NCBI RefSeq assembly: GCF_029094545.1
Contig: NZ_CP117835.1
Span: 2,770,001-2,834,000, forward strand
Direction: 5' to 3'
DNA from: Alkalihalophilus pseudofirmus
GTDB lineage: Bacteria; Bacillota; Bacilli; Bacillales; Bacillaceae_D
DNA length: 64,000 nucleotides
This document shows, one piece after another, positions 12,956-21,723 of this stretch (positions are counted from its first letter, which is position 1; every line of letters begins with the position of its first letter). A program made the translations under genes and the position numbers. The notes under the pieces are model-generated. The model did no database searches, was not told the DNA's origin, and saw only the letters and a program-made list of their open reading frames with translations.

Positions 12956-14449
12956 TTATTTTTTTTGTGCCTTCATTTCCAGCTTAAACACCTTAAGTAT
13001 GCTGTAGCTCATAGCAAGTAAGATAAAGGTTAAAGGAAATGCGCTGACAATAATCGCCGTTTGCAAGGCATTTAGTCCTCCTGATGCCATTAATACAACC
13101 GCAGACGCACTTAAAATCAGCCCCCAAGAGATTTTAATAAAGACGGAGGGATTTAAATCTCCTTCAGTCGTCTGCATTCCAAGAACAAATGTGGCAGAGT
13201 CAGCAGAGGTGATGAAAAATGTACTTATAAGCAATACAGTTAATACAGATAACACCCCGCCTAACGGTAAAAAGTTATAGACGTAAAATAACCCCGTCTC
13301 TAAACTTTGGCCAGCTACATCTAGCCCCTCTATTAAGTCAAAATAAATTCCTGTTCCGCCAAAGATGGCAAACCAGAATGCGCAAACAAGTGTAGGAACG
13401 ATTAATACAGCTACAACAAATTCTCTAACTGTTCTCCCTTTTGATACTCTAGCAATAAACATTCCAACAAATGGAGACCAAGAGATCCACCATGCCCAAT
13501 AAAAAATCGTCCACCCTTGAGTCCAGGCAGCACTTTCTTGATTAAATGGAGAAATACGCAGCCCCATTTGCGGCAAGTTTTGAATATACTGCCCTAATGT
13601 ATGAGTAAAAAGGTTTAATAAAAATAACGTCGGACCAACAATGATCATAATGATTAAGAGTAATACCGCTAAAATCATATTCGTATTACTTAAATATTTA
13701 ATTCCTTTTTTAATACCTGTTGAAGCTGAAATAATAAATAAAACTGTAATAATACCTATAATCAATAACTGGATGTTAAAATTAATAGGTATCCCAATCA
13801 AATAATTTAATCCTGCATTAATTTGTTGAGCACCTAAGCCTAACGAAGCACAAACTCCAAATAACGTTGCAAATACAGCTATAATATCAATTGTATATCC
13901 AATAGGTCCTCTGACTTTGTCTCCAAAAATAGGCTGCAATGTGGAACTCATTAAACCTGGTACCTGCTTGCGAAACTTATAATAAGCTAAAGCTAATGCT
14001 ACTGTCGCATAGATGGCCCATGCATGAAATCCCCAGTGTAAGTATGTAAATCTCAATGCAATGAGAGCTGCCTCAGACGTTCTAGCTAGTTCTTCCCCGC
14101 CATACGGAGGTTCTGCATAATGTGATATAGGTTCTGAGACACCATAAAAGAGTAACCCGATCCCCATCCCCGCACTAAAAAGCATGGCAAACCAAGTAAG
14201 CCGGTTAAATTCAGGTTTATCATGTTCCTTTCCTAATTTTATTTTTCCATATTTACTGAAGATCAAAAACAGAGCAAACAATAGAAAGAATGAAGCAGCA
14301 AGCTGATAAAACCAACCAAAAGCTGTCAAAAAAAATGTTTGCGCACTCTCCATTACTTGACCGAGATTTGCCGGAAAAAATGTTCCCCATAAAACAAATA
14401 AAAGCGCCATAACAATTGATATTTTAAAGGTTATCGTTAGATTTTTCAC
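12956..14449 (-). CDS. BCCT-family transporter (betaine/choline/carnitine type)
   Basis: A sodium- or proton-coupled importer of quaternary ammonium osmolytes such as glycine betaine, in the membrane. At 497 residues with twelve helices it matches OpuD/BetL. Diagnostic motifs are MLFSAGMGIGLLFYGVSEPI (about residues 91-110) and WTIFYWAWWISWSPFVG (about 314-330), which carries the Trp-rich substrate-binding helix. ARVSKGRTVREF follows. It is a single gene. Such carriers commonly serve osmoprotection in halotolerant bacilli. The exact substrate is not decidable here. Confidence 0.93.
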   Translation of the reverse strand: MKNLTITFKISIVMALLFVLWGTFFPANLGQVMESAQTFFLTAFGWFYQLAASFFLLFALFLIFSKYGKIKLGKEHDKPEFNRLTWFAMLFSAGMGIGLLFYGVSEPISHYAEPPYGGEELARTSEAALIALRFTYLHWGFHAWAIYATVALALAYYKFRKQVPGLMSSTLQPIFGDKVRGPIGYTIDIIAVFATLFGVCASLGLGAQQINAGLNYLIGIPINFNIQLLIIGIITVLFIISASTGIKKGIKYLSNTNMILAVLLLIIMIIVGPTLFLLNLFTHTLGQYIQNLPQMGLRISPFNQESAAWTQGWTIFYWAWWISWSPFVGMFIARVSKGRTVREFVVAVLIVPTLVCAFWFAIFGGTGIYFDLIEGLDVAGQSLETGLFYVYNFLPLGGVLSVLTVLLISTFFITSADSATFVLGMQTTEGDLNPSVFIKISWGLILSASAVVLMASGGLNALQTAIIVSAFPLTFILLAMSYSILKVFKLEMKAQKK

Positions 14450-14573
14450 ACAGAATTCTCCTTCTCATTAGCCAATTTCACAACTGCAATTGATGTGTCA
14501 TCTAATAGTGTGCATCATTTATTGTTTTCTTATGATAAGAACAACACAGTGAAGTGACTCTTTGAAAGTGCCA

Positions 14574-14604
14574 TAAAAAAAAGAGCTCATTATTTTGAGC
14601 TCTT
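14574..14604 (-). terminator. Terminator overlapping the 3' end of the mscS gene
   Basis: AAGAGCTCA/TGAGCTCTT with eight T on the minus strand. The 5' arm lies inside the last codons of the channel gene. Confidence 0.85.
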
Positions 14605-15747
14605 CTCGTTTTCAGCGGTATGATCTTCTTCCACTTCTTCTTTTAACATTTCTTGCATGACATCTTGATGATCTTTTTCAACATAGAGACTTCTGCTTGG
14701 GAATGCAATCTCTACACCTTCTTCTTCTAATATGTTCATGATCTTAAAATTAATATCTTCTTTTATTCGATACCATTCGGTCCATGCAGTCGTATTCGTA
14801 AAAAAGTAAACAAAAATGTCCAAGCTTGAATTATTAAAATCACTAAAACGAACCATAATCAAATCTTGATTGACTTCTTCATGCTCTCTAAGCAACGTAT
14901 CAATTCTATGAACACAGTTTTCTAACTTATGACGAGGGGTAGAATACGTTACACCGACTTTAAAAGTAATTTGACGCTTTGTCATCTGTGACCAGTTGGT
15001 AATCGGTTCGTTTGCAAGGGTAGAGTTAGGAACCGTAACAATAGAATCAGCAAAAGTTCTTATTTGTGTACTGCGGAAAGTGATATCCTCTACAGTACCT
15101 TCTACTGAAGGCGTTTTGATCCAGTCTCCTTTTGAAAAAGGTTTTTCTGTAATAATAATAATTCCTCCAAAGAAGTTACCGATTGTATCTTGTGCTGCAA
15201 GAGCAAATGCCAGACCACCAAGCCCTAAACCAGCAATGAAACCACTAATACTATACCCCCACTCACCAGCTATGACCACGATTGTTAAGGCAATCACCGA
15301 AAACCTTAGGATCTTAGATAAGAAAGGAACTAACATACTATCTTCATCAAGTTCTACTCTTTTAGCAAAACGGAAGAAAAAAGCGGAATGAGCAGACATA
15401 TAATTATGTAAGCCCCATCCAAGAAGCATAATTATAAACGACCTGTAAATATGCTGAACAAACTCTGTTGTGGTTATGTTGAAAGGCAGATACAACAAAG
15501 CTAAGTATGTACCTAATACAATCCAAAAAAGCCTTAAGGGCTTCTCAAATGAAAGCAGCACATCGGTAAACACATGAGTTGGGGTTCTCCGTGTCAGAGA
15601 AACAATAAATTTAAACACATATTTGGTAAATAGCTTACGAAAAACCAAGAAGATAAGAAATATTCCAAAGGCAATTGAAATATCTATCCACTCTAGACGT
15701 TGAAAGGATGCAATCAGCATTCTCCAGCGTTCCATTGAATTATCCAT
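14590..15747 (-). CDS. Small-conductance mechanosensitive channel family protein (MscS/YhdY type)
   Basis: A 385-residue membrane protein with several N-terminal helices. An MscS pore and beta domain spans about residues 160-265: ISGFIAGLGLGGLAFALAAQ (the pore helix), then FFGGIIIITEKPFSKGDWI and VEDITFRSTQIRTFADS. The C-terminal tail is acidic. These channels open on membrane stretch during hypo-osmotic shock. Its position beside a BCCT osmolyte importer fits osmotic adaptation, although the two genes have separate terminators. Confidence 0.92.
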   Translation of the reverse strand: MDNSMERWRMLIASFQRLEWIDISIAFGIFLIFLVFRKLFTKYVFKFIVSLTRRTPTHVFTDVLLSFEKPLRLFWIVLGTYLALLYLPFNITTTEFVQHIYRSFIIMLLGWGLHNYMSAHSAFFFRFAKRVELDEDSMLVPFLSKILRFSVIALTIVVIAGEWGYSISGFIAGLGLGGLAFALAAQDTIGNFFGGIIIITEKPFSKGDWIKTPSVEGTVEDITFRSTQIRTFADSIVTVPNSTLANEPITNWSQMTKRQITFKVGVTYSTPRHKLENCVHRIDTLLREHEEVNQDLIMVRFSDFNNSSLDIFVYFFTNTTAWTEWYRIKEDINFKIMNILEEEGVEIAFPSRSLYVEKDHQDVMQEMLKEEVEEDHTAENEKSSK

Positions 15748-15882
15748 TAAATAGTCACCTCTATCTCACATTAACCTCTCCATTAAAATTAATATTTTAC
15801 CACAAAAACCTCATATGAGATGGCAATCACATAATAATACGAATACCTTTTACATTTTCCTCAAAACAATGGATTAAAACCT

Positions 15883-15914
15883 AAAAAAGAGCAGTCAAAA
15901 TGAATTGACTACTC
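15883..15914 (-). terminator. Terminator overlapping the ytxH stop
   Basis: The 10-bp stem GAGTAGTCAA/TTGACTGCTC has a TTTTTT tail on the minus strand. It begins within the last codons of the YtxH-domain gene. Confidence 0.85.
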
Positions 15915-16232
15915 CTCTTCTAACACACCTTGTATTAATTCACCAATTTCTGATTGTTCACCAGCACTTTGGTTTTTCGTCTGTTCAGGTTTTTTGCTGT
16001 CACTTAGTACTTCTTTTATATCCTCGCTCCATTCACTGCCAAATTCAAGCAATAGGTGGGATAAGGCGCCTCCTTTTTTTGAATTTGCTTCTGGCATTTT
16101 ATTAACCAGACCTTTTCTCATTTGGCTGCCTCTTTCACTAGCTAATAAGTAATAACCAGCAACACCAACTGCTGTGCCGACAAGTGATCCGATAAAGTAT
16201 CCTGAACGAGATGAACGTTTCTTTCTAAACAT
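15909..16232 (-). CDS. YtxH domain-containing protein
   Basis: A 107-residue small protein. It has a basic N-terminus (MFRKKRSSRSG), then one glycine-zipper membrane segment (YFIGSLVGTAVGVAGYYLLA) and the conserved SERGSQMRKGL after it. This is the standard layout of YtxH proteins. These are stress- or sigma-B-associated in Bacillus subtilis, but their mechanism is unknown. The C-terminal half is polar and acidic. It is a single gene upstream (in transcription) of nothing obvious. Confidence 0.8.
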   Translation of the reverse strand: MFRKKRSSRSGYFIGSLVGTAVGVAGYYLLASERGSQMRKGLVNKMPEANSKKGGALSHLLLEFGSEWSEDIKEVLSDSKKPEQTKNQSAGEQSEIGELIQGVLEEE

Positions 16233-16306
16233 CCCTACAACCCCTTCCTTTTCAAATAGTATGAGGTTATAAAGCGTTTCTTATGAATGTAATTTATTTT
16301 GTTAAT

Positions 16307-17296
16307 TTAAGTAACTGGAATAGCGCGCTCTTCAATTTCAAACCCTAGGTCTTCAATCATATGATGATCAATCTCAACACTTTGTCCCTCTGTTGTTAAA
16401 TAATCTCCTACAAAAATAGAGTTCGCTGCATACAACGCGAGCGGCTGCAATGTTCTGAGATTTAATTCCCTGCCCCCTGAGACACGGATTTCTTTTGATG
16501 GATTAATAAATCTCATTAACGCTAAGACGCGTAAGGCTTTCATTGGCGCTGTCCGGCTTTTCCCCTCAAGAGGAGTACCTGGTACGGCATGTAAAAAATT
16601 TACTGGAATTGAATCCGCATCGATCTCACGCAGGGCATATGCCATTTCTACAATTTGCTCATCTGTTTCTCCCATTCCTATAATGACACCGGAACAAGGT
16701 GACATCCCTGCACTCTTTGCACTTTCTACTGTTTCGACTCTATTATCATATGTATGACTTGTTGTAATCGCCTCATGATGATCGCGATGAGTATTAATAT
16801 TATGATTATATCTATGAACCCCAGCTTGCTTTAGTCTTTTGGCTTTCTCATCTGTCAAAATCCCTAAACACGCACATATTTTTAAAGGCATCGTAGCTGT
16901 AATCTCTTCTACTGCTTCAATAACCCCGTCGAGCTCTCGCTCAGTCGGACCTCGTCCGCTTGCTACGATACAATAGGTTCCTGCTTTTCTCTCCATCGCT
17001 TCTCTTGCACCCGCTAACAATGTTTCCTTATCTAAGAAAGAATACTTCTCAACTGGTGCTGTTGATACAATTGATTGTGAACAGTACCCACAATTTTCAG
17101 GACATAGTCCACTTTTAGCATTGATGATCATATTTAATTTCACTTTTTTTCCATAGAAATGACTTCTAACTTTAAAAGCCGCCTGTAAGATAGGCAGTAC
17201 TTCTTCATCGTCTGCCTGTAAGATAGACAGCCCCTCATCTAAGGATAATTTTTCTCCAGTTATCGCTCTTTTAGCATAGTTTAACCATTCACTCAT
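16307..17296 (-). CDS. bioB: Biotin synthase
   Basis: A radical-SAM enzyme that inserts sulfur into dethiobiotin. It is 329 residues long. The radical-SAM cysteine motif CPENCGYCSQ lies near residue 68. YNHNINTHRDHHEAITTSHT, CSGVIIGMGET and SGGRELNLRTLQPLALYAAN are also conserved, including the residues that hold the auxiliary 2Fe-2S cluster. No other biotin genes lie nearby. A BirA-type operator immediately upstream suggests biotin repression. Confidence 0.97.
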   Translation of the reverse strand: MSEWLNYAKRAITGEKLSLDEGLSILQADDEEVLPILQAAFKVRSHFYGKKVKLNMIINAKSGLCPENCGYCSQSIVSTAPVEKYSFLDKETLLAGAREAMERKAGTYCIVASGRGPTERELDGVIEAVEEITATMPLKICACLGILTDEKAKRLKQAGVHRYNHNINTHRDHHEAITTSHTYDNRVETVESAKSAGMSPCSGVIIGMGETDEQIVEMAYALREIDADSIPVNFLHAVPGTPLEGKSRTAPMKALRVLALMRFINPSKEIRVSGGRELNLRTLQPLALYAANSIFVGDYLTTEGQSVEIDHHMIEDLGFEIEERAIPVT

Positions 17297-17460: not shown

Positions 17461-17493
17461 AAAAAATCAAGGTGCAGATACCTACACCTTGAT
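17461..17493 (-). terminator. Terminator of the potassium-channel gene
   Basis: ATCAAGGTG/CACCTTGAT stem followed by TTTTTT on the minus strand. Confidence 0.85.
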
Positions 17494-17513
17494 AATATTA
17501 TTCTAATATAAAT

Positions 17514-18278
17514 TCAACACGTATCTCGATTACGCTTTTCTTCTTCAAGAAGTTTTATAAGAATGTCTATTTCAGCAGCAGTTAAGTGATCTAATTCATT
17601 GATTTTTTCTTTCATATACGTAACTTGGGTAGATTCCTCTTTAATCGTCCCTGTTAAAAAATAACTGGTGATTGAAGCTGTAATAATCCCAATTAATCCT
17701 ATTCCAAAAAGCATCAGAAACACAGCAATTAATCGACCTATAGGGCTTGATGGCGATATATCTCCATAACCTACAGTCGTGGTTGTCACAATACTCCACC
17801 ATAGTGCATCAGCATATGTTTCAATATTCGGTTCAAGGTGAACAATAGGAATCGAGCTTAAAAAGACCATCAACGTCATGAATGTGACAGCTTTTCCTAA
17901 TCCGTGCTTATTTAATATTACTGCTAAGGGCCTTGCATATCTAGAAACAATCACCAAAAGTCTAAGTGCCCTGATGACTCTTGCAATTCTAGCCAGCTGA
18001 AATACCGCATCAAATGGTATGATGATGATCAAATCAAGAGGGTTCTTTTTAAGATGAGCGGTTTTATTTTTACTTAGAATGAATCTTATAAGTACATCGA
18101 TTGTAAAAATGAGCCACACAATTAAATCTAATACATAATACTGATTTTCATCAATAAAGACGAGTCCAAACGTTACACATGCTAATGTAAATAAAAGAAC
18201 TTCATATGCAAAGATCCATTTGTTTTTTTGTGCGATTTGTTTATCTTTAGTTATGTCTGCTTCCATACTTATCACCAT
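17514..18278 (-). CDS. Voltage-gated-type potassium channel
   Basis: A 254-residue six-helix ion channel. The selectivity filter TTVGYGDISP sits near residue 167. The S4-like helix has regularly spaced arginines (LARIARVIRALRLLVIVSRY, about residues 94-113). The C-terminal cytoplasmic tail is a charged helix (KINELDHLTAAEIDILIKLL). No RCK domain is present. It lies directly downstream of the two ATP-grasp ligase genes and DUF350 gene on the same strand, with a weak terminator between. Membership of that module is therefore possible. The start could be the ATG at 18278 or one four codons later. Confidence 0.88.
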   Translation of the reverse strand: MVISMEADITKDKQIAQKNKWIFAYEVLLFTLACVTFGLVFIDENQYYVLDLIVWLIFTIDVLIRFILSKNKTAHLKKNPLDLIIIIPFDAVFQLARIARVIRALRLLVIVSRYARPLAVILNKHGLGKAVTFMTLMVFLSSIPIVHLEPNIETYADALWWSIVTTTTVGYGDISPSSPIGRLIAVFLMLFGIGLIGIITASITSYFLTGTIKEESTQVTYMKEKINELDHLTAAEIDILIKLLEEEKRNRDTC

Positions 18279-18284
18279 CTTAAA

Positions 18285-18310
18285 GAGACAGCCACATTTA
18301 CTGCTGCCTC
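18285..18310 (-). terminator. Weak terminator between the ATP-grasp operon and the channel gene
   Basis: An 8-bp GAGGCAGC/GCTGTCTC stem with only TTTAA after it. Read-through into the channel gene is plausible. Confidence 0.5.
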
Positions 18311-18316
18311 TTTTGA

Positions 18317-19561
18317 TTATTTCATTATAGTAAATCCAACAAACATGGACAAATTACCAGTAATATATTCACCCACCCGGAAAAATAGTCCTGCTGGTTC
18401 ACCATTCATAGTATGAGACCCAATAAGTAATCTGCCTGTATAAGGTCCATCCCATGTGTCTATCGTTTGACTTGGCATCGGGTAATATTCTTGATAAACC
18501 ATTTGTTGATCTTGATAGTAATCAAGGTCCTGATCTAGAATATGATTATTTTCTACTACAGTAATCCCCCCGCCCTCTCGTCCTAGTACGGGCTTTTTAA
18601 CGTAGGAATATAGACCTGCCTGATCGTCATACGTGCGTAAAAAATAACGCTCAATTATTTCTTGTTCCCCTCTTGTATACCATTCTTTTTTCTTCTCAGT
18701 AATCAATGAGAGGACTGCTTTGGACTGCATCATTAATGCTTGTGGAGGATTTATCAACTTTACTTTGCCTTCTAATACGTTTACAAGAAATTGCTCACCA
18801 ATCGACTCGCCCGTACCGCTTTTCTCATGAAGAAAGTATTCAAGTGGATAAAGACGGTATAAAAAGTGGATCTGATTGCCGCTCGGATCATATACCCCAT
18901 CTTTTCTTACTTCTATCTCCTCTAATGGGATGTAGTCTGCATTTTGAGGGTAGTGTTGCATCAAATACTTTGCTGTTAGCTTATCCTCATCATGCCAATT
19001 CGCAGCTGTAAAGTAGAGCGTATCTGAACTTCTTATCTGGTAATCTTTTATAACCTGATCCCATGCTTCTTTTACAAGCCGGTTTATCCCTTCATTAGGA
19101 TTTTCCACTTGATGCACGTTCGCTAGACGGTTCTGAGCAATAGCTGCTTCAACTAGTCCAACAGGTGTATCAGTATTTGCTTCTATTACCTTTAATCCAT
19201 GTACTGAAGCAATAAAATCATATCTAGTAAAGTATGAAAAGCGTTTACTCTGATCTTCCAACAAAAGATCCCACAGCATAATTGGAATGCCTAATCGATG
19301 CATGATACTAGGATTCTCTTTGATCATTTTATATGTTTTTATATAAATTGCATCTACTGCCCTTGTTGCATTTTTAATCTCGGTATACATCGCATGAGGA
19401 ACTTCTAGCATAGAATCACTCATATATTGATGTTCTTCGTAATTCTCATATAGAGTAGCCCATGTAAAACCAGCTTTCGCCATTTCATCATAGAGTGATT
19501 CAAAACGATTAAGATACTTTTCTTGCTCAAAAGGTGTTGTCAATGAGCGGTATGGTAACAT
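18317..19561 (-). CDS. Glutathionylspermidine synthase-like ATP-grasp ligase (YjfC/YgiC family), copy 1
   Basis: A 414-residue ATP-grasp amidoligase related to the synthetase half of glutathionylspermidine synthase. These enzymes form amide bonds between a carboxylate and an amine at ATP cost. Seen: the HGLKVIEANTDTPVG substrate/ATP region (about residues 130-144), YRLYPLEYFL, LINPPQALMMQSKAVLSLI, and the nucleotide-site KPVLGREGGG. Bacilli do not make glutathionylspermidine, so the true substrate is unknown, probably a peptide or polyamine-like group. I start at ATG 19561 because AGGAGG lies seven bases upstream. The gene follows DUF350 by 19 bases, so it is in the same operon. Confidence 0.87.
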   Translation of the reverse strand: MLPYRSLTTPFEQEKYLNRFESLYDEMAKAGFTWATLYENYEEHQYMSDSMLEVPHAMYTEIKNATRAVDAIYIKTYKMIKENPSIMHRLGIPIMLWDLLLEDQSKRFSYFTRYDFIASVHGLKVIEANTDTPVGLVEAAIAQNRLANVHQVENPNEGINRLVKEAWDQVIKDYQIRSSDTLYFTAANWHDEDKLTAKYLMQHYPQNADYIPLEEIEVRKDGVYDPSGNQIHFLYRLYPLEYFLHEKSGTGESIGEQFLVNVLEGKVKLINPPQALMMQSKAVLSLITEKKKEWYTRGEQEIIERYFLRTYDDQAGLYSYVKKPVLGREGGGITVVENNHILDQDLDYYQDQQMVYQEYYPMPSQTIDTWDGPYTGRLLIGSHTMNGEPAGLFFRVGEYITGNLSMFVGFTIMK

Positions 19562-19580
19562 ATCTGCTCCTCCTATCAAG

Positions 19581-19997
19581 TTAATAACTGATTGTTGCAG
19601 CGACAATAATGCCTACTAATACAGAAATGCCTCCAAGGAACAACCCGACTGCCACATTACCCTTTTCTACCTCATTTGCTAAATTGGTATTTCGTGTAAA
19701 GGCATGTTCTAATACAAAATGAAGCAACACTTGAATAATAATAGCAATTAATGCCCAGATCGCTAAGTCTACTAAATTGATTGAACTTCTGATCGCTGAT
19801 TGCAACACAACAACCAGGCCTGCCATTTTCCCTAGTAACTTAAGAGAAACGGCCACATTCCCTGCTCGTATCAAGTCTCTTTCTGAATAAGGAGTTAGCC
19901 GCTTAAAAATAAACGTTCCTATTAGAAATAATATAAATGATGTTGCTAAATAAATGAGAAAATGATCAAATGTTTGTAGATAATATAAAATGTCCAC
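19581..19997 (-). CDS. DUF350 membrane protein (YjfL family)
   Basis: A 138-residue integral membrane protein with four helices. They are arranged as two repeats, each containing a GN-AV-L-LxG pattern (GNVAVSLKLLGKMAGLVV and later GNVAVGLFLGGISVLVG). This internal duplication is the hallmark of DUF350. In E. coli the homologue yjfL neighbours yjfM (DUF1190) and yjfC (ATP-grasp). The same combination is seen here. It lies three bases after copy 2 of the ligase and directly before copy 1, between the two enzymes. The function is unknown. It may be a membrane platform for the ligases, by inference. Confidence 0.88.
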   Translation of the reverse strand: MDILYYLQTFDHFLIYLATSFILFLIGTFIFKRLTPYSERDLIRAGNVAVSLKLLGKMAGLVVVLQSAIRSSINLVDLAIWALIAIIIQVLLHFVLEHAFTRNTNLANEVEKGNVAVGLFLGGISVLVGIIVAATISY

Positions 19998-20000
19998 TAG

Positions 20001-21254
20001 TTAGGTATCCCCTTTCACTACACAAGGCAAAAAATATGATAAATTATCAGTAATGGCTGCACCTGCACGAAACCCAAATGCGCTCGCTTTTTCTCCAACA
20101 ACAAAACTGCCAATTAGCAAATGCATTTCTTTTGCACCTAATTCTGTGTTAACGACGGCCGTTGGCAGTTCCACGTATTTTTGAAATACTTTAATAAACT
20201 CGTCGTATGTATTGTGCGTCTCTTCTCCAATCACGCGGCCAAATTCTTTTATTCTTACCGTATCACCTTCTCTGCCGAATATAGGCTTAGAAACATATTT
20301 CTCTCCTGTTTCTACGAAAGGCTCCTCATCTAAGTATGTCGGCAAAAAATACGTTTCAATGATTTGGTGGTCGTAATCAGAAAAGTATGGATGATTCGCT
20401 TCATGCAGCCCCCATATAACAGCAAGCATTGCTTTTGTCTGCATTAAAAAAGCTGATGGCGGATTAAGGATTCCAACCTTTTTGTGTTCGACTAATTGCA
20501 AAAATGCTTCTCCAATCAGATAGCCATCATCTGTCTGATCTCGCACTAATGCTTCAAGCGGATAAGTATGACGGTAGACTATATCTATCTTCTTTCCATC
20601 TTGATCATATACTCCAGCTTCCCTCTCACCAGTATTTACAATAAGTTCATCTAATGGGATAAAAGCAGCGCCTGGAATCTTAGCAGACTTCATCAAATAG
20701 TTTAAGGTTTCACGATCTTCTATATCCTCTTTATGAGCGGTAAATACAACATATGGATACTCCATCAAGCCTAAGTAATCAGATAATTGATTAACGGCTG
20801 CTCGCACATTCTCGCCTATTTTCTCATCTTCTCCTTCATTAGGATCAGCACAGTCAAAGCTGTTTGCGACTTTGCCGTTTACTTCAAACACCTCTCTTAT
20901 AAAGGTCGGTGTATCCGCATTGAACTCTAAGATCTTTAATCCGTTTTTAGTGTCGACAAAGTCAAAACGGCCGATAACCGTTTCAAAGCTGATAGTCTCC
21001 TTTTTCAAAAGCGAGAGGGTTTGTTTAGGAACGCCAAGCTGTATGAACGTTTCCTCTTCCGCTAGTCTTACTAATTGATTCGTTTTCTTAAAAATGGAGT
21101 ATGCCTCTTGAGTTGCTTGCTGAACTTCTGCTACCTGCCTATTAGAAAGTGGAATATAATCATATAAAGCATATTCCATACCATATAATCGATCCCAAAA
21201 ATGATCGATCTGATTGTAAAAACTATCACGACGCTCTTTGTAACTACCCTCCAA
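20001..21254 (-). CDS. Glutathionylspermidine synthase-like ATP-grasp ligase (YgiC/YjfC family), copy 2
   Basis: A 417-residue paralogue of the 18317-19561 enzyme. Both ATP-grasp sites look intact: GLKILEFNADTPTF and SKPIFGREGD, plus LNPPSAFLMQTKAMLAVIWG. The family start region KERRDSFYNQIDHFWDRLYG lies at the very N-terminus. I choose TTG at 21254 with GGAGGTGG six bases before it. An ATG 45 codons upstream would lie entirely within the lipoprotein gene and add a low-complexity tail. This gives an 11-bp overlap with the lipoprotein stop, so translation is likely coupled. The substrate is unknown. Confidence 0.85.
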   Translation of the reverse strand: MEGSYKERRDSFYNQIDHFWDRLYGMEYALYDYIPLSNRQVAEVQQATQEAYSIFKKTNQLVRLAEEETFIQLGVPKQTLSLLKKETISFETVIGRFDFVDTKNGLKILEFNADTPTFIREVFEVNGKVANSFDCADPNEGEDEKIGENVRAAVNQLSDYLGLMEYPYVVFTAHKEDIEDRETLNYLMKSAKIPGAAFIPLDELIVNTGEREAGVYDQDGKKIDIVYRHTYPLEALVRDQTDDGYLIGEAFLQLVEHKKVGILNPPSAFLMQTKAMLAVIWGLHEANHPYFSDYDHQIIETYFLPTYLDEEPFVETGEKYVSKPIFGREGDTVRIKEFGRVIGEETHNTYDEFIKVFQKYVELPTAVVNTELGAKEMHLLIGSFVVGEKASAFGFRAGAAITDNLSYFLPCVVKGDT

Positions 21255-21723
21255 AAAAACCACCTCCACCCATTCCTGAGCGGGAGTTCGTTGTTTGGTT
21301 ATTATTTTGCTGGGATTGATTTTGCTGGTTCGTTTGTTGATTTTGATTTGACTGCTGGTTTGTTTGTGAATTTGTGCTTGTGGAGCCATCTTGTCTTTGA
21401 TTCGTTACTGGTGAGCTTCCTGCACTACCTAACGCTCTTCCGGCCATAAATGCGGCAAACGTTGGAAACCAGCTTCCACCTGCATAATAGTGACCATGGT
21501 GTTCTGACCCTTCTTCGGCACATTGATAAGCTTCTGCCTCTGCATCCCAAGTCCAAACTTCACAGCCTGTTTCCTCTGGAGATGGAGGGGGTTCCTCAGG
21601 TGATGTTTGCGGGATGTTTACTAAGTCTTCTGTATTGGGACTGTAGCATGCACTCAAACTTGCTAAGGCAAAGCTTGTACCAATTATTCCTTTTAGCAAG
21701 CGATCCGTTTTCGGTTTATTCAT
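21244..21723 (-). CDS. Lipoprotein resembling YgiB/DUF1190, Gln/Asn-rich
   Basis: A 159-residue exported protein with lipobox LASLSAC (Cys26). It then has an acidic Pro-rich stretch, a conserved-looking CEVWTWDAEAEAYQCAEEG pair of cysteines, and GGSWFPTFAAFMAGRALG. A long Gln/Asn/Thr-rich region follows, ending in SGMGGGGFFGG. E. coli YgiB/YjfM (DUF1190) share the order lipobox, GSFW-type segment, low-complexity tail, and they also sit before an ATP-grasp gene. I therefore infer the same role without claiming clear sequence homology. It is the first gene of the operon. A surface-exposed target or substrate of the ligases is possible. Confidence 0.65.
   Translation of the reverse strand: MNKPKTDRLLKGIIGTSFALASLSACYSPNTEDLVNIPQTSPEEPPPSPEETGCEVWTWDAEAEAYQCAEEGSEHHGHYYAGGSWFPTFAAFMAGRALGSAGSSPVTNQRQDGSTSTNSQTNQQSNQNQQTNQQNQSQQNNNQTTNSRSGMGGGGFFGG

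Follow-up and report, generated by a model that had tools for sequence, protein, structure and literature searches.

In Escherichia coli, the gene families considered here are found in two operons, ygiB-ygiC and yjfL-yjfM-yjfC, both of which combine a DUF1190 lipoprotein ending in Gly-Gly with an ATP-grasp ligase, and the yjf operon also includes DUF350. The 'third group' of operons linked to the phage shock protein (PSP) system likewise unites an ATP-grasp ligase, DUF350, a DUF1190 lipoprotein and a potassium channel, according to the accessible text of the survey describing it (Ravi et al., 2024; PMC11237479). The present analysis concerns an operon of this type in a stretch of 64,000 nucleotides from Alkalihalophilus pseudofirmus (contig NZ_CP117835.1, positions 2,770,001 to 2,834,000; hereafter the window, the coordinates of which are used throughout). 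The five genes, all on the minus strand, encode a DUF1190-type lipoprotein, a first ligase (AG1), a DUF350 membrane protein, a second ligase (AG2) and a Kv-type potassium channel. The operon differs from the E. coli ygi and yjf operons in having two deeply paralogous ligases for one lipoprotein, in its downstream Kv channel, and in being without the yjfIJK genes (DUF2170, PspA, and DUF2491). The third-group operon, unlike that of the window, contains a CesT/Tir-PspA dyad together with DUF2491, and its channel senses ligands intracellularly, as far as the available part of the survey goes (PMC11237479). Neither PspA nor a CesT/Tir partner was present among the five operon genes and the scanned neighbours, to which, within the window, the PspA scan was confined. 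A PspA/DUF2170 operon, termed 'bac', has been studied experimentally, to judge from the accessible part of that report (PMC10948618). The description of the locus as uncharacterised in the original prediction, which was made from the DNA sequence, was hence only partly right, since the E. coli homologues are named and the available text of the 2024 survey (PMC11237479) includes a group of operons combining these families. The operon type is thus known, and the variant with two deep-paralogue ligases and a Kv channel is new. The assignment of a substrate, the glycine-rich C-terminal tail of the adjacent lipoprotein, is new as far as checked, and it would provide one precise, testable candidate substrate for YgiC/YjfC. 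In the accessible text of the survey, the word 'glycine' occurs 0 times and no mention of a C-terminal tail was found (PMC11237479). A literature search, made mostly without C-terminus terms and with the primary biochemistry of 2023 beyond its reach, found neither such a tail nor a cellular substrate of YgiC/YjfC in the texts available.

The lipoprotein gene (21244..21723, 159 aa) matched Pfam DUF1190 marginally (E 7.6e-5, 23.5 bits against a cut-off of 22), and it is followed by AG1 (20001..21254, 417 aa), a YgiC/YjfC-class ATP-grasp ligase with a GSP_synth match of E 3.1e-72. The start of AG1 is most likely the TTG at 21254, within the last codons of the lipoprotein gene, because of a Shine-Dalgarno (SD)-like sequence and homology, although the open frame reaches an ATG at 21389; with this start the two genes overlap by 11 bases. 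A spacer of 3 bases separates AG1 from the DUF350 gene (19581..19997, 138 aa; Pfam DUF350 E 1.3e-36, 126 bits against a cut-off of 26), the two halves of which are internal repeats (hhalign probability 92%, E 6.9e-7). AG2 (18317..19561; GSP_synth E 5.8e-55) follows after 19 bases if it starts at the ATG at 19561, as appears probable, its open frame reaching a TTG at 19606. The tight same-strand spacing at these three junctions, the YgiB-like lipoprotein, the two paralogous ligases resembling glutathionylspermidine synthetase, the internal duplication of DUF350 and the shared families of ygiBC and yjfLMC had all been pointed out in the original prediction, and each was borne out. The two ligases were the only GSP_synth genes found in the genome.

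Both ligases aligned with YgiC, YjfC and the E. coli glutathionylspermidine synthetase Gss (GspS) across the entire catalytic part. The equivalents of Gss R316, D318, E330, N332, E391, K498, K533, and R598, the catalytic residues of Gss, were invariant in 34 aligned sequences including AG1 and AG2, so that the ATP-grasp residues are intact and the active site of neither ligase is degenerate. A phmmer search of AG1 against the PDB recovered YgiC (7uk8, E 1.6e-19) and YjfC (E 4e-14), and no further distinct PDB sequence at E≤0.01. The AlphaFold2 model of AG1 (mean predicted local distance difference test, pLDDT, 84.1) matched YjfC best in Foldseek (7uk6, E 6.6e-25), with Gss and YgiC next, and the nearest folds included GspS, trypanothione synthetase and glutathione synthetase. 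The fold and PDB searches were made with AG1, and AG2 was placed with the E. coli YgiC/YjfC group by alignment alone. Fold and catalytic residues resemble those of E. coli Gss as well; the window ligases differ from it in having no amidase domain and in carrying ADTPT/TDTPV in place of ADSAS. Identity with Gss itself was rejected, as the NCBIfam equivalog gave 55.7 and 55.8 bits against a cut-off of 882, and the best matches of both ligases to it fell within profile positions 248–576 of 619. The RefSeq product name of E. coli YgiC and YjfC is peptide--spermidine ligase, a name that presumably traces to Pederick et al. (2023), and YgiC is without Gss activity according to the accessible part of a 2025 paper (PMC12506659). 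Fold and catalytic residues thus place the window ligases in the YgiC/YjfC class, and spermidine ligation is their predicted activity. In a maximum-likelihood tree rooted on YgiC/YjfC, nine AG1 sequences joined the single ligases of other genomes (99/97) with the exact sister left open, and nine AG2 sequences formed a clade of their own (99/94), separate from both of these. Because the tree separates them, AG1 and AG2 are attributed to a deep duplication or a separate acquisition and not to a recent tandem copy.

The window lipoprotein comprises a signal peptide with a lipobox (...SLSAC, Cys26), a head containing C54 and C68, a variable low-complexity linker and the C-terminus SGMGGGGFFGG-COOH, the codons of which (21247..21279) specify the predicted ligase substrate, a prediction made from the conservation of this tail. 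Among 33 aligned lipoproteins, T6, C26, C54, C68, G150, and G158 were invariant and G152, G154, and G159 nearly so; the signal peptide was kept, the linker was highly variable in length and composition, and the end was strongly conserved. The profile built from these sequences (the window lipoprotein and 32 relatives) matched the window protein at 3.9e-31. Open reading frames (ORFs) were called mechanically, some being incomplete at the region ends, and two duplicates of the window (L001/L002) were excluded from all counts. Of 56 DUF1190 copies at 54 Bacillota loci and the window, 52 ended in Gly-Gly, three in Gly-Ser and one in Ser-Glu, and the simple lipobox pattern was present in 53; of the remaining ORFs at the same loci (809 with a length of 90 aa or more), 7 had a Gly-Gly end. 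The E. coli proteins conform as well, with YgiB ending in ...SSRSMGG and YjfM in ...SSARGHWGG, and RGGFG/RGGYG upstream in each. As to the copy ending in Ser-Glu (L005:10300-10770), a tail-like sequence was seen by eye in another frame just past the stop; its frame ends before the tail owing to a mutation or a sequencing error. At two further loci (L054 and L055), the ligase gene was broken into two open frames and the adjoining tailed lipoprotein was intact.

Presence of the ligase and the lipoprotein was compared in a sample of 150 genomes of the order, the own genome included, of which 56 gave a GSP_synth match and 54 exceeded the cut-off. The 54 regions fetched came from the 53 other ligase genomes, G073 carrying two modules. 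The lipoprotein gene was present in the window and at 53 of these regions, the exception (L056) holding only a ligase fragment, and DUF350 in the window and at 49. The recurrence of these families that the original prediction had led one to expect was thus found. Searched against whole genomes at E≤0.001, the lipoprotein profile matched 53 of the 150, i.e., the ligase genomes minus the one with the fragment (G021), and gave no match in the other 96; co-occurrence in this sample is therefore strict. Presence of the pair is patchy within families (f1, f5, f10, and f28), which suggests that the two genes were probably gained or lost together repeatedly. Ten DUF1190-like matches lay away from ligases, of which nine kept the tail (six Gly-Gly and three Gly-Ser); in the tenth, a marginal match (L070), the tail was not found. 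Four of these ligase-distant tailed lipoproteins (L061–L064) directly adjoin a DUF350 gene of their own. These pairs, encoded away from any ligase, associate DUF350 with the tailed lipoprotein and not with the ligase, and they suggest that a single ligase acts in trans on several tails. Two genomes (G129 and G066; L065–L068) were seen to carry one ligase and three tailed DUF1190-like lipoproteins each.

The tail was followed beyond the Bacillota in a set of 80 loci, which are the best of at least 563 confirmed ligase stretches and not a random sample. According to record titles, they come from Proteobacteria, Planctomycetes, Verrucomicrobia, Actinobacteria, Acidobacteria, Armatimonadota, Marinimicrobia, and others. 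As the partner at each locus, we chose, among the ORFs that end close to the start of the ligase gene, the one whose codon usage most resembled that of the ligase. A tail pattern, [GS]G[FILMY]G followed by 2–28 residues and ending in G, S, A or E, fitted 76 of the 80 chosen ORFs, or 75 of 80 after removal of one false match in an unrelated protein (L110). In the background it fitted 2 of 697 ORFs, one of which is the true partner of L091 that the selection had missed; the corrected background used in the Fisher test is 1 of 696, and in the Bacillota background the pattern fitted 0 of 809 ORFs. Partners from 76 of the 80 loci were aligned, those of L075 (a 623-aa open frame), L092, L105, and L110 being left out and the frames of L091 and L126 being picked by hand. 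Only 23 of these 76 matched Pfam DUF1190 and 24 the NCBIfam DUF1190 model (E≤0.01), no Pfam or NCBIfam model for the tail was found among them, and other matches were scattered singles. The columns of the GFG block were the only ones invariant or nearly so over all partners. Because few partners match DUF1190 and the GFG block alone is conserved, the tail is regarded as their shared element. When L091, L092, L105, and L110 were excluded from the 80 loci instead, the penultimate residue was Gly in 71 of 76 partners. The simple lipobox pattern was found in 52 of 76 cross-phylum partners, some of the others showing a plain transmembrane stretch by eye. DUF350 was present at 49 of the 80 loci.

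Taken with the conservation of the tail at the exact C-terminus, these observations suggest that the carboxylate at the end of the lipoprotein tail is probably joined to a polyamine, most plausibly spermidine, by the ligases while the protein is still in the cytoplasm, ahead of its export. A precedent for such a reaction exists in Gss, which forms an amide between spermidine and the C-terminal glycine carboxylate of glutathione. By analogy, AG1 and AG2 would use ATP to activate the carboxylate of the glycine-rich tail, which would then be joined to a primary amine, most likely that of spermidine, and this coupling would precede export and lipidation of the prolipoprotein. The product would consist of a lipid anchor and a small cysteine-containing head, from which a flexible low-complexity chain would lead to a polycationic tip on the outer side of the membrane, and DUF350 would act as the membrane partner of the tailed lipoprotein. 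Early modification fits the overlap of the lipoprotein and AG1 genes. We infer the tail as substrate, spermidine as the amine and modification before export from this set of sequence features. What the original prediction suggested, amine attachment to a lipoprotein by the ligases, is accordingly supported and narrowed to the C-terminal tail, the attachment itself being still a prediction. The downstream role can be guessed to lie in surface charge, in signalling of polyamine supply to DUF350 or in the plugging of a pore. If the proposal is true, C-terminal polyamination of surface lipoproteins would be widespread, roles would be suggested for DUF1190, DUF4247, and DUF350, and the recurrence of polyamine genes in envelope-stress (Psp-type) operons would be explained.

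Several points weigh against this proposal. Modification of the tail is a prediction from sequence. By eye, the ligases carry no export signal, and the mature tail is expected to lie outside the cytoplasm, so that modification would have to come before export. The terminal residue is G in 42, S in 29, E in four and A in one of 76 partners (76 of the 80 loci, with L091, L092, L105, and L110 excluded), which is laxer than expected for a strict glycine substrate. The tail pattern was composed after inspection of the sequences, and four of the 80 partner choices (L091, L092, L105, and L110) were wrong or untailed. The genomes are not independent and the co-occurrence counts ignore phylogeny. One ligase-positive genome (G133) gave no match to AdoMetDC, and part of the DNA-level conservation of the tail in Bacillota has a second cause in the SD sequence of the next gene.

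It might be argued that the ligases act on small soluble glutathione-like peptides and that the tail serves cell-wall contact or the binding of a partner. GspS, trypanothione synthetase and glutathione synthetase, all of which use small peptides, are among the nearest folds of AG1, and glycine-rich C-termini can be adhesive. However, a tailed lipoprotein would not then be expected to track the ligase as it does, in 53 of 54 ligase genomes and 0 of 96 others, nor would the tail be expected to be the most conserved part, at the exact C-terminus, of partners with divergent bodies. This explanation is hence considered rather unlikely.

Alternatively, the tail could be joined to another amine, such as that of a cell-wall sugar, an aminolipid or a protein, which would yield a covalent tether in place of a polycationic tip. 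The two distinct ligases of the operon could each have an amine of its own, and a related-fold ATP-grasp ligase, Cp1B (9cjn), is described, in the accessible part of the source, as having a broad substrate scope with its partner enzyme Cp1D. This alternative is quite improbable, as the E. coli homologues carry the name of a spermidine ligase and the versions in PSP-linked clusters carry polyamine genes according to the available text of the survey (PMC11237479).

We also considered that the tethered polyamine tip might act as a ball-and-chain plug of a pore, either that of the neighbouring potassium channel or one formed by DUF350. Such a plug would accord with the variable-length low-complexity linkers that precede the tip and with the potassium channels that adjoin the module in the window and at 25 of the 54 Bacillota loci, and polyamines do block potassium channels. 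It is nevertheless very improbable, given that the window and its relatives have channels of different classes, that hardly any of the 80 cross-phylum loci has a channel, that DUF350 has no pore function known to us and no significant PDB match, and that the tip would act from outside, unlike in classical polyamine block.

The last alternative is that the Gly-Gly codons are a by-product at the DNA level, forced by the GGAGG of the SD sequence of the next gene, since GGAGG encodes Gly-Gly. An SD-like string is present in the last 24 nt of 33 of the 52 Bacillota copies ending in Gly-Gly, and in the window the likely SD sequence of AG1 overlaps the tail codons. The protein-level pattern of substitution runs contrary to this explanation: among close relatives, the last 13 codons showed 14 nonsynonymous and 107 synonymous differences, as against 102 and 188 in the preceding 27 codons, in 24 non-independent pairs of 23 loci from eight hand-picked near-relative groups, with the same result when the count was redone with aligned sequences. 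As GGAGG is absent from the last 24 nt of 20 of the 52 copies, the last two Gly codons differ among copies in their third bases, the tail is retained in nine of the ten copies that lie away from a ligase, and the GFG/GMG several codons upstream belongs to a motif that persists across phyla despite varied spacing to the ligase, an SD artefact as the full cause of the tail is largely refuted and extremely improbable, though it contributes at some loci.

A likeness to the proposed polyaminated lipoprotein was also found in a sister cluster of Bacillales, DUF4178-PspA-DUF4247-DUF350-SpeE, which shares a tailed lipoprotein, DUF350 and a polyamine-type enzyme with the window operon. It differs in that the tail offers a lysine amine instead of a glycine carboxylate and in its enzyme, a homologue of spermidine synthase that is extended at the N-terminus. 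DUF4247 was found in 36 of the 150 genomes, only one of which (G009) is shared with the ligase set. In 20 hand-picked 10-kb loci of 37 places (L153–L172 and L173–L192), DUF350 was present in all 20, a Spermine_synth-type protein in 19, DUF4178 in 18 and a PspA homologue in 18, these Pfam names resting on one representative each. The DUF4247 lipoproteins ended in GK-COOH in 20 of 20 loci, with RGGGPGxGK in 15. The terminal lysine amine could be used by an aminopropyltransferase as the terminal glycine carboxylate could by an amide ligase, and the sister cluster could thus be a second chemistry putting an aminopropyl or polyamine group on the tip of a lipoprotein. It has been suggested that polyamine operons linked to PspA may detect 'aminopropylation of other substrates', in the accessible text of the survey (PMC11237479), and the tails provide candidates for such substrates. 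We tentatively put forward, with somewhat less than even confidence, the broader reading of a hitherto unrecognised system of post-translational modification in the bacterial envelope, in which YgiC-class ligases polyaminate [GS]GFG...GG/GS-COOH tails of membrane-anchored lipoproteins in many phyla, a parallel DUF350-linked system aminopropylates the terminal lysine of DUF4247 lipoproteins, and these two unrelated chemistries converge on lipoproteins with a polyamine tip that work with DUF350.

DUF350 itself is widespread, being found genome-wide in 138 of the 150 genomes. Its AlphaFold2 model (pLDDT 92.6) gave no PDB match at E≤0.001 in the fold search. A second DUF350 gene of the own genome (L071:4720-5151) lies between genes that by eye are MutS2-like and acyl-CoA-synthetase-like, and it has no tailed neighbour. 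Another neighbour of the module is a family of ∼150 aa, here called C3, with the consensus SAEIDEDRxVYVLY near its end, which was present at 41 loci (e.g., L047:6553-7014). It occurs in 44 of the 150 genomes, all of them ligase-positive with a single ligase, and is missing from precisely the nine genomes that carry two ligases. This distribution links C3 to the single ligase and suggests that it may be replaced by the second ligase; the nine two-ligase genomes may descend from one event. Two members of C3 were tested and gave no Pfam match over the cut-off, and a relationship of C3 to DUF4178 was rejected (hhalign probability 0.1%). SpeD is present in the own genome, in keeping with a polyamine as the substrate amine. 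AdoMetDC was discarded as a discriminating co-occurrence, since it was found in 142 of the 150 genomes and is uninformative.

The Kv-type potassium channel gene (17514..18278, 254 aa) carries the filter motif TTTVGYGD and matched Ion_trans_2 (E 1.5e-17) and Ion_trans (E 3.4e-17), with no RCK or TrkA match among those listed by Pfam; at 1e-60, the RCK-channel profile found nothing in the own genome. It lies 38 bases downstream of AG2, and a pattern scan found no terminator between the two genes. An intrinsic-terminator-like stem-loop (17466..17493; 12 pairs and a T run, a consensus match only in the pattern scan) is situated 3' of the channel gene and likely marks the end of the operon, although the three terminator-like sites in the region are no excess over a shuffle mean of 2.6. 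With no terminator seen before the channel gene and the 12-pair one after it, the channel gene is probably cotranscribed. The original prediction had placed the channel just downstream behind a weak terminator; the downstream channel gene with its motif stands, and the terminator-like site sits after it.

Of the 54 Bacillota loci, 25 have a potassium-channel filter motif near the module, in every case within a single protein cluster, the tested member of which is of the RCK (YugO-like) class, unlike the Kv class of the window. A Kv-type channel beside the module was seen in the window alone among the Bacillota loci, and a locus of the same genus (L003) has no channel beside it. The motif was found in two of the 80 cross-phylum loci, one match being doubtful. 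Owing to the difference in class, its absence in L003 and its rarity across phyla, the channel was rejected as a core component and is lineage-specific, and for the same reasons the proposed link of the module to ion homeostasis is weak. Beyond the channel gene, the window (12956–17296) contains genes for a BCCT betaine transporter, an MscS-type channel, a YtxH-like protein and BioB, which occur in the same order in L003.

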